Shown: positions 403 through 4,360 of the stretch, piece by piece
Numbering within the stretch: position 1 is the first letter of the stretch
Layout: each line of letters begins with the position of its first letter
Source: Candidatus Zixiibacteriota bacterium
GTDB lineage: Bacteria > SM23-81
Assembly (NCBI GenBank): GCA_030628225.1
Contig: DAOVRJ010000127.1
Location: 1 to 6,993, forward strand
Direction of reading: 5' to 3'
Length of the DNA: 6,993 nucleotides
The notes under the pieces: model-generated
What the model was told of the DNA's origin: nothing
The model's input: only the letters and a program-made list of their open reading frames with translations
Databases searched by the model: none
Program-made: the position numbers and the translations under genes

Positions 403-426
403 ATAAAATGCAGATGAATGCAACTT

Positions 427-510
427 CATATAACAGAGCGTATCTGGCTTCTCTACGCTTCGCCCAAATTCCCCTTCGGGGAACTTCAGATACGCTCGAA
501 ACGTTAAATG
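427..510 (+). repeat. attC-like integron recombination site (cassette end)
   Basis: Seen directly are three nested inverted repeats. The outer arms are CATATAAC (427-434) and GTTAAATG (503-510), complementary at 7 of 8 positions. The middle arms are GAGCGTATCTG (436-446) and CAGATACGCTC (487-497), a perfect 11-bp pairing. The inner hairpin is TTCCCC-ttc-GGGGAA (469-483). GTTAAAT at 503-509 fits the integron core site GTTRRRY exactly, and the left arm ends in AAC as an inverse core does. The site begins 24 bases after the trmO stop. Position, length (84 bases) and arm order match attC (R''-L''-variable loop-L'-R'). Two points are atypical: the unpaired spacers are uneven (1 base left, 5 right), and I see no obvious extrahelical base in the L arm. 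It is not a terminator, since no T-run follows on either strand. A REP-like element is the alternative. Confidence 0.72.
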
Positions 511-554
511 AAAAAATCGGGCAGTTTTTAAGAAGAAATACGGATATGAACGAT

Positions 555-560
555 AGGAGG
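555..560 (+). promoter_or_regulatory. Shine-Dalgarno AGGAGG deciding the GTG start at 572
   Basis: AGGAGG is a perfect anti-SD match. It lies 11 bases before GTG 572 but 47 bases before the alternative ATG 608, which has no purine-rich site of its own nearby. This favours GTG 572, although the spacing is slightly long. The SD sits inside a 9-codon ORF (ATG 546 to TGA 575) whose stop overlaps the GTG as GTGA. Confidence 0.55.
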
Positions 561-571
561 ATTATCATAAA

Positions 572-1216
572 GTGACACATCCAATCTGCAATTTAATTCT
601 AAAGACTATGAGAAAATCAATTTTTATATCAGCTATCGGTGTTGTTTTCCTATTATCTGCGTGTAGCCAACAAACTTCTACAAACGACCAAAGTCAAAAC
701 GAAAACTTTCCTGCGCCTGAACAACAATCGGATCAAATGCAAAAAGATAATCACGAATTGCCAGAGGATCTGAAGCTTTATGAAAATGCCGATTATAAAT
801 TTAAGGCCAAGATATTTTCTCATTGGGACATACAAAAAGCTGGTTGTCCTTTTAAGACAAAAGGAGAACATCTATGCGATATATTTTTTGTGGAGCCTGG
901 GCCTAATTACACTAATGACCCAGTTGACAGAGAAGTTAGGTTTACGGTAAGTATTTATAAATCATCGACTTCAGATTCAATTTTACAAGAGACATATGCC
1001 GGGGAAATAATACAGGAAAATGACTTTATGGTAGGAAATATAAATGGCAGAGAGTATATTTTTAAAGTAAGGAGCATGATCGAAGATAAGATAGTTAGGC
1101 TGAGGAAGTTAATAATAAAAACAGGAAAATATGCCTATGTCATTCACAGCGATCTTTGTGATGATGAAAAAAAAGAATGCGATCGGATCCTATCCAGTTT
1201 CGTTTTTACGAACTAA
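572..1216 (+). CDS. Exported lipoprotein, PsbP/Mog1-like fold suspected
   Basis: The 214-residue product starts with a lipoprotein signal: basic residues at 11-15 (K11, R14, K15), a hydrophobic stretch (IFISAIGVVFLL), then the lipobox LSAC with C31 as the lipidated residue. Serine follows it, a +2 residue compatible with the outer membrane. A polar linker rich in Q, N and D (32-66) leads to a domain of about 145 residues. The opening LYENADYKFKAKIFSHWDI and the ending ILSSFVFTN recall PsbP/Mog1-fold lipoproteins; that is a resemblance, not a firm assignment. Four cysteines of the mature domain (C92, C102, C196, C203) come in two close pairs and could form two disulfides outside the cytoplasm. 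The GTG start is chosen for its AGGAGG; an ATG at 608 would give a 202-residue form with a more classical short signal peptide. The gene follows an attC-like site in the same orientation, so it is probably a cassette gene. It is A+T-rich like trmO. No function is assigned. Confidence 0.8.
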   Translation: MTHPICNLILKTMRKSIFISAIGVVFLLSACSQQTSTNDQSQNENFPAPEQQSDQMQKDNHELPEDLKLYENADYKFKAKIFSHWDIQKAGCPFKTKGEHLCDIFFVEPGPNYTNDPVDREVRFTVSIYKSSTSDSILQETYAGEIIQENDFMVGNINGREYIFKVRSMIEDKIVRLRKLIIKTGKYAYVIHSDLCDDEKKECDRILSSFVFTN

Positions 1217-1238
1217 CGGGAATCAGCAGGACATCGAC

Positions 1239-1297
1239 AACGGCAGGTATCTGGCTTGGCAGAAAGAAGCTTTTGCGATACAGCAGATGCACTCGAA
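1239..1297 (+). repeat. Degenerate attC-like remnant at the composition boundary
   Basis: AAC (1239-1241), five bases, then GTATCTGGCTT (1247-1257) repeats the left half of the attC-like site at 432-450 with identical spacing (AAC 432-434, GTATCTGGCTT 440-450). Downstream, CAGATGCACTCGAA (1284-1297) matches the right half of that site (487-500) at 12 of 14 positions. The order is the same and the interval is 10 bases shorter. No GTTRRRY core follows, so if it is an attC it should be inactive at that end. It begins 23 bases after the lipoprotein stop, where a cassette's attC is expected. It overlaps a separate hairpin, GCAGATG (1283-1289) with CATCTGC (1301-1307). A chance match cannot be excluded. 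Confidence 0.42.
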
Positions 1298-1355
1298 TGT
1301 CATCTGCCACGTGTCCCCAAGTTTCACCCGCGTCAGAACTCGCCACACATTTTCG

Positions 1356-1363
1356 AAAGGAGG
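1356..1363 (+). promoter_or_regulatory. Ribosome binding site AAAGGAGG for the lipoprotein at 1370
   Basis: AAAGGAGG ends 6 bases before ATG 1370. It selects this start over in-frame upstream codons, which would add a non-hydrophobic segment in front of a complete signal peptide. Confidence 0.8.
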
Positions 1364-1369
1364 GTTTCG

Positions 1370-1846: not shown

Positions 1847-1957
1847 TTGCCGGTAGCAGACGAGGATATTTTTCCTTCACTACACGGTGAGCTCTCGACA
1901 TTCGACGTGAGAAAAACCTACGGCCAGAAACAAAAGTAAACACCATCTCAAAAGGTG

Positions 1958-2758
1958 ATGGATACGACTCAGATGGAAGAGGAACGAGCAGACAAAGAGA
2001 ACCACATTGAAGAAGGACACACAGGTATTCCGCTATACGATCCGGTGGAACTGGCCAAAAAGCTGCAGAAAATCGTCCTGCGGGCTAGCCAGCGCAAATA
2101 CTACCGTCTGGCCAGGGCCGGGCGCTGGTACGGCGGGATTGCCACTGCCGACTGCTGCGGCTGTAATCTGCGGTGTGTGTTCTGCTGGAGCGGGAAGCCC
2201 CGGGATAACCCGGACAAGGTGGGCACTTTTTACGAATCCCAACAGGTGGCCAGAGCTCTGGTCACCTGCGCCCGGAAGCACCGCTACCAGCTGGTGCGCA
2301 TCAGCGGCAACGAGCCCACCCTGGGCAGGGACCATCTCCTCCAGGTCATCCGTGCCGTGGAGCGGGCCGGCCTGGCTTTCATGCTGGAGACCAACGGCAC
2401 TCTTATCGACCTGTCTTTGGCCAAAGCTCTATCCTCCTTCGCCAAGGTGCACGTCCGCGTCTCCCTGAAGGGAACCGATGCAGAGGAATTTTCCCGGCTG
2501 ACCGGCGCGCGCCCGGAGGGCTTCTCCCTTCAGCTATCTGCGCTGGAGAACCTTTTGGTGGCGGGGGTAAGTTGTCATCCTGCCGTGGTGACCTCCTTCA
2601 GCTCCTCAGATAACCTAAGGCAACTCAAAAAGACGCTGCAGACTATCCATCCAGAGTTGGTTCCCAATCTGGAAGAGGAAACGATCATCCTATACCCCCA
2701 CGTGGCCCGGCGGCTGAAGCAGGCTGGTCTATATCCCAGAGAGGCGTATCGTCCGTAA
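1958..2758 (+). CDS. Radical SAM protein, probably COG2108-like, function unknown
   Basis: The product has 266 residues from ATG 1958. The radical SAM cluster motif is CNLRCVFC (C69, C73, C76), whose three cysteines bind a [4Fe-4S] cluster that cleaves SAM. Other family features are SGNEPT (116-121), at the place of the usual GGEP SAM-contact motif, LETNG (143-147), and HVRVSLKG (165-172) on a later core strand. Two more cysteines (C66, C67) sit just before the motif. There is no obvious C-terminal SPASM or extra cluster domain, so it is a compact core enzyme. The pattern resembles uncharacterised proteins described as related to pyruvate formate-lyase activating enzyme (COG2108); this comes from memory of the family. 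The substrate is unknown and the neighbours do not reveal it. The start is uncertain: GTG 1955, ATG 1958 and ATG 1973 are all in frame, and AAAAGGTGAT (1950-1959) would best serve ATG 1973. Confidence 0.88.
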   Translation: MDTTQMEEERADKENHIEEGHTGIPLYDPVELAKKLQKIVLRASQRKYYRLARAGRWYGGIATADCCGCNLRCVFCWSGKPRDNPDKVGTFYESQQVARALVTCARKHRYQLVRISGNEPTLGRDHLLQVIRAVERAGLAFMLETNGTLIDLSLAKALSSFAKVHVRVSLKGTDAEEFSRLTGARPEGFSLQLSALENLLVAGVSCHPAVVTSFSSSDNLRQLKKTLQTIHPELVPNLEEETIILYPHVARRLKQAGLYPREAYRP

Positions 2759-2917: not shown

Positions 2918-3571
2918 TCATTCGGTACTCCGGTATACTCGATAATCAATCTCCGGGAAGATATTGTCCCTGCCCTCGATCTCCTCCAACCAGCCGCCAT
3001 CGATCCGGCTATCCTTGATCTCCTGATACAACCTGGTAAATCGCAGAATGTGATCCTTGGTCCGGCGTATACCATAGAATGCCGTATCACCCCCCTTCAT
3101 CATAAAAGCCCAATCGCTGCTTTGAGCCAACAAAAGCTCCCGGGCCGCCTGATTCAAGGCCCTGTTCTCCAATGAGGTGGGCTGCGTCTTCTCGTCGGCC
3201 AGCTCCGTCATTCGCTCTGCGGCCTTGTGCAGATGACGGTAAATCCAGTCGTTGCTCCCATCCAACCAAACATCGTTGTAGCCCTTATGACCCCAGCTGG
3301 ACGCAGATGGAGTGGAAACCTGGTGGGTGGGATACATCTCCAGATATTCGCTGAGGGTGATCATTCTGAAGACCTTTTGCTCAAAAGCCACCTTACGCAA
3401 TAACATCTCCAGCCATTGGGGACCCTCATACCACCAGTGACCGAAAAGCTCCGCATCGTAGGGAGCCACCACAATGGGCGGTTTGCCCATGAAATCTCGA
3501 AGATACTCGATCTGCCGCTCCCGGTTGAACATAAAATTCCCGGCATGTTCAGCGGCCTTCTCCCTCCCGCC
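2918..3571 (-). pseudogene. DUF1957 / GH57 branching-enzyme-like gene, N-terminal ~300 codons missing
   Basis: The frame encodes the C-terminal part of a DUF1957 protein (glycoside hydrolase family 57, 1,4-alpha-glucan branching type). Seen are EHAGNFMFNRERQIEYL, then PPIVVAPYDAELFGHWW (GH57 motif 4, whose Asp is the family acid/base), then SSWGHKGYNDVWL, NDWIYRHLHKA, QAARELLLAQSSDWAF, and an apparently natural end, RDNIFPEIDYRVY. Family members run to roughly 520 residues. Here only about 217 codons lie between the DUF4912 stop (TGA 3572-3574) and the end. The N-terminal barrel half with the catalytic Glu nucleophile and the usual start are absent. The homologous frame begins straight after that stop, in the same frame: TGA, then GGREKAAEHAGNF. 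The first plausible start, ATG at 3532 (MFNRER), has no proper RBS; that form would have 204 residues. The RBS-like GGGAGGGAGAA after the TGA is better placed for an out-of-frame ATG. An internal deletion is inferred; an assembly error is the alternative. Confidence 0.8.
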
Positions 3572-4360
3572 TCAGGTCGTTCCCTCAACACCTGCTTCTG
3601 GAAATTGACTGTGTGGCAACAATTTCTCAGGTTTCTTCTGGAGATCACGGGAGCTATTTCCCTGCTCCCTCCCTTCGGAAAGGTCATACATCCTGGCGCA
3701 CTCGTCCCCCACGCTCATCCAGGACTCATCCTGCACATCGGATATGCCGGCACGAGGAGTGGTCACCACGTTGGACCGGGCCAGGGGCGAAAAGCGTTCC
3801 TGGTCGTCCAGCAGACCGATCTCCACACAATAGGAGCGATTAGAGGCGGGAACGTTGATATGCCAGTTATTGCTCCCGTCAGTGATCTCGATATCGAACA
3901 TTCGGCGAGCTTTCCGACCATCGTCAGCCGGGCCGGCTATCTGGTATACCCGGAGAGCCATTTCTAACCCCTGATCTCCTGTGCCCGATGAGATCTGAAC
4001 CTCCATCAGCCGCGCAGCCGTGATCTCCCAGTAGGCAAAAATCCAGTGAGGATCTCGAACCATCAGCACGATTCTGTTATCGCCATAGTTCATGGGGAGC
4101 TCCTGAAACTCGGGAGGTATCGACTCCTCTGGCTTTTCTGGCGGGCTGTATTTAGACTGCTCTACCTTCTGCTCCTCTGTGGACTGGACAACCGGAGAGA
4201 TAGGCTTTTGGGGGGGAGCAAAAATGTCGTGATTCACCCTTCCCCAAAGATGGCTCAACAGCTTCTTCTTGCTCATCGATCGCCATCCGGGAATTCCCGC
4301 TTGCTGAGCAAGTGCCTGAAGCTCTTTTTTAGTTTTGGAGTGCAAATGGCCTCGACCCAT
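3572..4360 (-). CDS. DUF4912 protein with Rho-N/SAP-like N-terminus
   Basis: The product has 262 residues. Residues 9-40 (SKTKKELQALAQQAGIPGW, then SMSKKKLLSHL) form a two-helix motif like the Rho termination-factor N-terminal/SAP-like element, often a nucleic-acid-binding module. A linker rich in P, E and Q (48-85) follows. The DUF4912 domain (about 88-205) shows LPMNYGDNRIVLMVRDPHW then FAYWEI (88-113), and later WHINVPASNRSYCVEIGLL (166-184). From knowledge of the family, DUF4912 genes commonly sit next to DUF1957/GH57 glucan genes, which matches the remnant downstream, but the biochemical role is not established. A link to alpha-glucan metabolism is therefore only contextual. ATG 4360 is preceded on the minus strand by GAAAGG (4368-4373) with 7 bases of spacing and by a sigma-70 promoter about 75 bases upstream. 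The C-terminal tail (about 225-262) is charged and low in pattern. Confidence 0.87.
   Translation of the reverse strand: MGRGHLHSKTKKELQALAQQAGIPGWRSMSKKKLLSHLWGRVNHDIFAPPQKPISPVVQSTEEQKVEQSKYSPPEKPEESIPPEFQELPMNYGDNRIVLMVRDPHWIFAYWEITAARLMEVQISSGTGDQGLEMALRVYQIAGPADDGRKARRMFDIEITDGSNNWHINVPASNRSYCVEIGLLDDQERFSPLARSNVVTTPRAGISDVQDESWMSVGDECARMYDLSEGREQGNSSRDLQKKPEKLLPHSQFPEAGVEGTT

Follow-up and report, generated by a model that had tools for sequence, protein, structure and literature searches.

A probable decayed attC site at the chromosomal end of a small integron cassette array in a Candidatus Zixiibacteriota bacterium

Introduction

The locus described here, from an uncultured bacterium, raises the question of whether a short repeat behind a lipoprotein gene is what remains of the attC site with which that gene once moved. 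A working attC recombines as a single folded bottom strand, in which the integron integrase binds the R and L boxes and cuts the R' core between G and TT, and attCs keep their fold while their sequence varies. The locus lies in a stretch of 6,993 nucleotides, hereafter the window, which is the entire contig C290 of a 2.34-Mb assembly in 306 contigs (the host genome, G000) that is 92% complete. The initial annotation had read the repeat as a second attC, that of a last cassette which lost its right core on becoming fused to the chromosome. That attCs decay and that CALINs are degraded integrons are ideas already in the literature (PMC9024848).

Results

The left part of the window differs in composition and content from the rest

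The closest named relative of the host genome is 'candidate division Zixibacteria bacterium SM23_81', with which the window is collinear from 2035 on through the radical-SAM gene, the branching enzyme C-terminus and a DUF4912 gene; DNA similarity also runs from 2035 onward, and the radical-SAM protein is 70% identical (Table 1). GC is low (0.35-0.39) in the left 1.2 kb, where the cut TrmO gene and a lipoprotein gene lie, the contig beginning inside a cassette so that its end falls within the array. Because GC is 0.349 in the lipoprotein gene and already 0.518 in 1217-1299, the shift in composition was placed right at the stop codon (1214-1216), in line with the annotated position of the second site at a change in base composition. 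An internal ATG at 610 is an alternative possible start of this gene, whose product has no Pfam or NCBIfam match; relatives of it were found neither in plasmids nor in viral contigs, and there was a single weak match among 386 genomes. As a separate observation, the branching enzyme gene at 2918-4360 appears broken, only a 204-aa C-terminal part (2918-3532) adjoining the DUF4912 gene; in SM23_81 the enzyme is a single 529-aa frame.

Table 1. Features of the left part of the window (all on the plus strand)
Feature	Position	Strand	Evidence
TrmO-type tRNA methyltransferase gene of the preceding cassette, truncated by the contig start	1..402	+	Pfam TrmO_N 1.7e-31; TIGR00104 6e-31
Predicted intact attC closing the TrmO cassette (site 1)	425..511	+	R2 91.8 bits, E 3e-22 (score not independent, site 1 being among the R2 members); family covariation
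Putative lipoprotein cassette, inferred extent, 796 bp, GC 0.362	504..1299	+	Between predicted crossovers of site 1 and site 2
Cassette gene: small lipoprotein, lipobox LSAC	572..1216	+	ORF
Probable decayed attC remnant (site 2)	about 1235..1305	+	Two-block similarity to four GTATCTGG-subtype attCs
Region upstream of the next lipoprotein gene, probably native; junction close to 1299/1300	1300..1369	+	Paralogue upstream similarity
Chromosomal lipoprotein; 3 relatives elsewhere in the host genome	1370..1846	+	
Chromosomal radical-SAM protein; synteny with SM23_81 starts here	1955..2758	+	Pfam Radical_SAM

Site 1 belongs to an attC family of the phylum

Site 1 lies behind a gene and has an R' box, GTTAAAT (503-509), that matches GTTRRRY, an R'' box, ATATAAC (428-434), that departs from RYYYAAC by one position, and a stem, GAGCGTATCTG/CAGATACGCTC, in which 11/11 positions pair; the crossover is predicted at 503|504. 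The bottom strand is predicted to fold better than the top (-19.2 vs -14.9), and neither this fold nor the family alignment places an extrahelical base in the L stem, another asymmetry being present. Rfam gave no match, plasmids gave nothing meaningful, and BLAST of site 1 against the host genome gave no second copy; a covariance model was required.

Trained on sites 1 and 2, a first model (R1) found further sites outside its training set, some of them in tandem, in two genomes of the same phylum (G002 and G003). Those on G002:C83 and G002:C31 sit behind genes that run in one direction and have the form TTCGCCTAACAG-stem...stem-AAACGTTAGGCGAA, and more such sites are present on G002:C112 and G003:C130. 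Both AAC-N5-GTATCTGGCTT and CAGATACGCTC are parts of attCs in these arrays of relatives. Twelve sites, namely site 1 and 11 from G002 and G003, with site 2 left out, were aligned (A4) as the basis of a second model, R2. In this alignment, cells in which both partners of a pair had changed numbered 37, compared with 14.7 in shuffles; 86% were paired, and shifting the partner columns by 1-3 destroyed the pairing. Judged by this covariation and by the tandem sites behind one-direction genes, the attC family common to the window and the arrays of the phylum is real, and site 1 is a genuine member of it.

In the A4 family the L stem is an ungapped 11 bp without an obvious extrahelical base, and the spacer measures 1-2 nt on the left and 5 nt on the right. 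The cassette arrays at L161 (G002:C83, 830-5236) and L162 (G002:C31, 8263-10046) carry small genes, methyltransferase and GNAT genes among them, and an attC of the family closes each. Several arrayed attCs have a GAT core (CGATAGGC or similar) instead of GTT (L161 4537-4630 and 5156-5236; L163 9454-9531 and 10347-10431; L202 5889-5962); they may be core variants or products of decay.

The initial annotation had proposed a comparison with other attCs of the same genome, and with R2 two were found outside its training set. The one at C172:570-646 is intact and closes a GC-poor acetyltransferase cassette beside GC-rich genes; at this locus (L199, about 570-1260) the single acetyltransferase cassette has TATACGCCA at both ends. 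The other, C222:2147-2242, has lost its core and carries CTTTAGG in its place, and such a core-less attC in the same genome counts in favour of site 2 being a decayed attC. At that locus (L200, 1532-2242) the core-less attC is followed by a toxin-antitoxin pair, HicB/HicA-like by our own reading of the sequences, with chromosomal genes beyond it; this is another decayed cassette end in the host genome. When 0.6 Mb of that genome, a set that did not include C172 and C222, was scanned for attC structures by a simple method, no convincing site emerged. Exact attC patterns had 0 matches in viral contigs and degenerate ones had 14, about the chance level by our estimate, none with a good attC fold.

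Site 2 resembles one subtype of this family

AAC-N5-GTATCTGGCTT occurs twice in the window with the same spacing, exactly as had been annotated: at 432-450 in site 1 (AAC 432-434, AGAGC, GTATCTGGCTT 440-450) and at 1239-1257 in site 2 (AAC 1239-1241, GGCAG, GTATCTGGCTT 1247-1257). The recurrence of CAGATxCxCTCGAA in the right half was borne out as well (487-500 and 1284-1297; CAGATACGCTCGAA vs CAGATGCACTCGAA, 12/14 identical), and so was the position just past the gene, the R'' relic beginning 19 nt after the stop codon, with the strand and the order of parts correct. The parts of site 2 are an R'' relic CGACAAC (1235-1241), L'' GTATCTGG (1247-1254), L' CAGATGC (1284-1290) and a core relic GTCATCT (1299-1305).

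The similarity was measured by a two-block test, which adds the scores of two matches, the best one without gaps for the left half of site 1 and the best one collinear with it for the right half. Against 1217-1369 the halves of site 1 scored 118 (null mean 69, sd 8); in a first run 0/5000 shuffles and 1/5959 real windows did as well, and in a second run 0/1500 shuffles and 0/6000 windows of the host genome. Since the inner parts of the two sites differ, ordinary gapped local alignment is less impressive (26/2000 shuffles). Site 2 scored 101-118 against site 1 and three G002 attCs of the same GTATCTGG subtype, the latter three being equalled by 2-8/1500 shuffles and 4-14/6000 windows. C112_9454, with GATATGTGGCTTCG, was intermediate (23/1500 shuffles), and most other family members, including clearly different subtypes, scored at background. 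Similarity among the attCs of related hosts is the rule (PMC9668308), and here site 2, at the right place and on the right strand, is homologous in sequence to the attCs of its host group, the mark of an attC relic. Before the analysis, lack of conservation of the shared bases in a host attC consensus had been named as evidence against the annotation; as attCs of the GTATCTGG subtype do conserve these bases, that objection fails.

Site 2 lacks features of a working attC

R2, which does not contain site 2, did not detect it at E<=10 even when the filters were turned off. A score of 68 bits with R1 was discarded as evidence because R1 contained site 2, which makes it circular. Only 7/11 Watson-Crick pairs of the stem are left, so L'' and L' are no longer fully complementary; the R'' relic keeps little beyond AAC of RYYYAAC; and the place of the core holds GTCATCT, one base nearer than in site 1, in agreement with the annotated absence of GTTRRRY. 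In DNA fold prediction, 1229-1311 does not take an attC-like shape; it is dominated by another hairpin, GCAGATG/CATCTGC around 1283-1307. By these features site 2 is not predicted to be a working attC.

The reading as a decayed end of the last cassette stands on the shared bases and the likeness to four attCs, and finds no support in R2. That failure would fit a mere chance resemblance, in which the DNA of 1217-1369 is native to the region upstream of the next lipoprotein gene and the true attC of the cassette was deleted, as would a local inverted repeat, unrelated to attC, that spans the right half of site 2. We consider this unlikely in view of the two-block test with its subtype specificity across four attCs and of the correct place, strand and order of site 2, and the junction described below also speaks against it.

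The probable junction with the chromosome lies close to the predicted crossover

From 1300 onward the window resembles the region upstream of a paralogue of the downstream lipoprotein gene on C243; the similarity is weak (19/2000 shuffles; p about 0.01, the boundary having been picked after a first look) and is absent upstream of 1300. Its start coincides with the predicted crossover G1299|T1300, but the shift in GC comes earlier, at the stop codon. That this only in-register paralogue similarity does not begin before 1300 speaks against all of 1217-1369 being native upstream DNA. Similarity to the upstream region of the paralogue on C139 was rejected as off-register. No empty insertion site was found in SM23_81, because this nearest relative is without the downstream lipoprotein gene and has wecB directly upstream of its radical-SAM gene.

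Known secondary sites for cassette insertion read GTT or GAT. An integrase could have inserted the array at a non-classical secondary (attG-like) site, with attC up to G1299, chromosome from T1300 and a core that was hybrid from the start, and the end of attC similarity at 1297 and the start of paralogue similarity at 1300 agree with this, as in known attG and secondary-site insertions, where attC runs up to the G and chromosome follows. Unlike in those, there is no GWT at the junction, the host half being G|TC, and no empty site was found; moreover, the broken L stem would be left unexplained, and at least two tandem cassettes fit an ordinary array equally well. We regard such an insertion as quite improbable, although attG insertion is a described process in the part of PMC12901181 that cites Loot et al. 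2024, and we favour a change of the right core by point mutation over a hybrid core. In this respect the initial annotation went too far: the core carries a mutation, GTC for GTT, and was not cleanly lost, and nothing ties the change to the time of fusion. No more than a few substitutions and a deletion of 1 nt would be needed.

Integrase genes in the host genome and its relatives

No integron integrase gene scored above the cut-off in the host genome, an assembly 92% complete with a contig ending in the array; its two tyrosine recombinases look XerC/XerD-type. In G003, three partial integron-integrase-like genes are present (C1:30-437, C75:22383-22619 and C201:1-165), two of them at contig ends; given how short they are, these contig-end fragments score high against the integron integrase model (208.8 bits over 136 positions), and a simple scan gave no attC near any of the three.

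The sharp GC change, the metagenome-type assembly in 306 contigs and the start of the contig inside a cassette might also be explained by a chimera, a foreign cassette contig having been wrongly joined to the host genome. This is very unlikely, given that another GC-poor cassette with an intact attC lies beside GC-rich genes on C172 and that the attC type is that of the phylum.

Discussion

Taken together, these data suggest, with good probability, that a small integron array has its downstream end in the window, where a TrmO cassette with an intact attC is followed by a lipoprotein cassette with a decayed one. Site 2 is most likely the decayed, non-functional attC closing the latter, which is the simplest account of it, and such a change is ordinary genome decay. 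The lipoprotein gene would have arrived as an integron cassette with a site 2 that was once functional, and the site would have decayed without selection after insertion, in a lineage without a detectable integrase. Site 2 retains the left half and the inner stem of the GTATCTGG-type attC of the phylum; with mutations in the outer stem pairs and in the GTT core, it should not recombine, and the lipoprotein gene would now be fixed in the chromosome. A captured gene would thus be seen turning into a permanent chromosomal gene, its mobility site still readable yet broken.

Like the attCs of sedentary chromosomal integrons, the sites described here lie behind each gene, have R'' and R' boxes and a conserved stem of variable sequence, are strongly similar among related hosts and, for site 1, have a stable bottom-strand fold. 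Unlike them, site 2 has neither a GTTRRRY core nor a full L stem, and in the family of the phylum the 11-bp stem is ungapped, no extrahelical base is obvious, and the spacer is uneven (1-2 nt vs 5). The contig, with one recognisable attC, one relic and no detectable intI in the assembly, also resembles a CALIN (cluster of attC sites lacking integron integrase; IntegronFinder) in having cassettes and attCs, but falls below the present threshold of two attCs, and it ends inside the array of an incomplete assembly. In fused cassettes, partial or total loss of the attC leaves a cassette that no longer moves alone (PMC4670013); the lipoprotein cassette, with its probably lost attC, would be alike, except that its neighbour is a chromosomal gene and not a cassette.

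Finally, site 2 pointed the way to an attC family whose arrays occur in a poorly studied candidate phylum and which offers intact as well as decayed sites of related hosts. Among the papers searched, no report combined integron, Zixibacteria and attC, and the family may be undescribed. More speculatively, and rather doubtfully, the phylum around SM23_81 could have its own integrons with unusual attCs (a stem of 11 bp with neither gaps nor extrahelical bases, a spacer of unequal length on the two sides, and a GAT core in several arrayed sites), site 2 being one of a graded series of core variants. If that reading is true, strand choice in this unusual family might rest on the uneven spacer.
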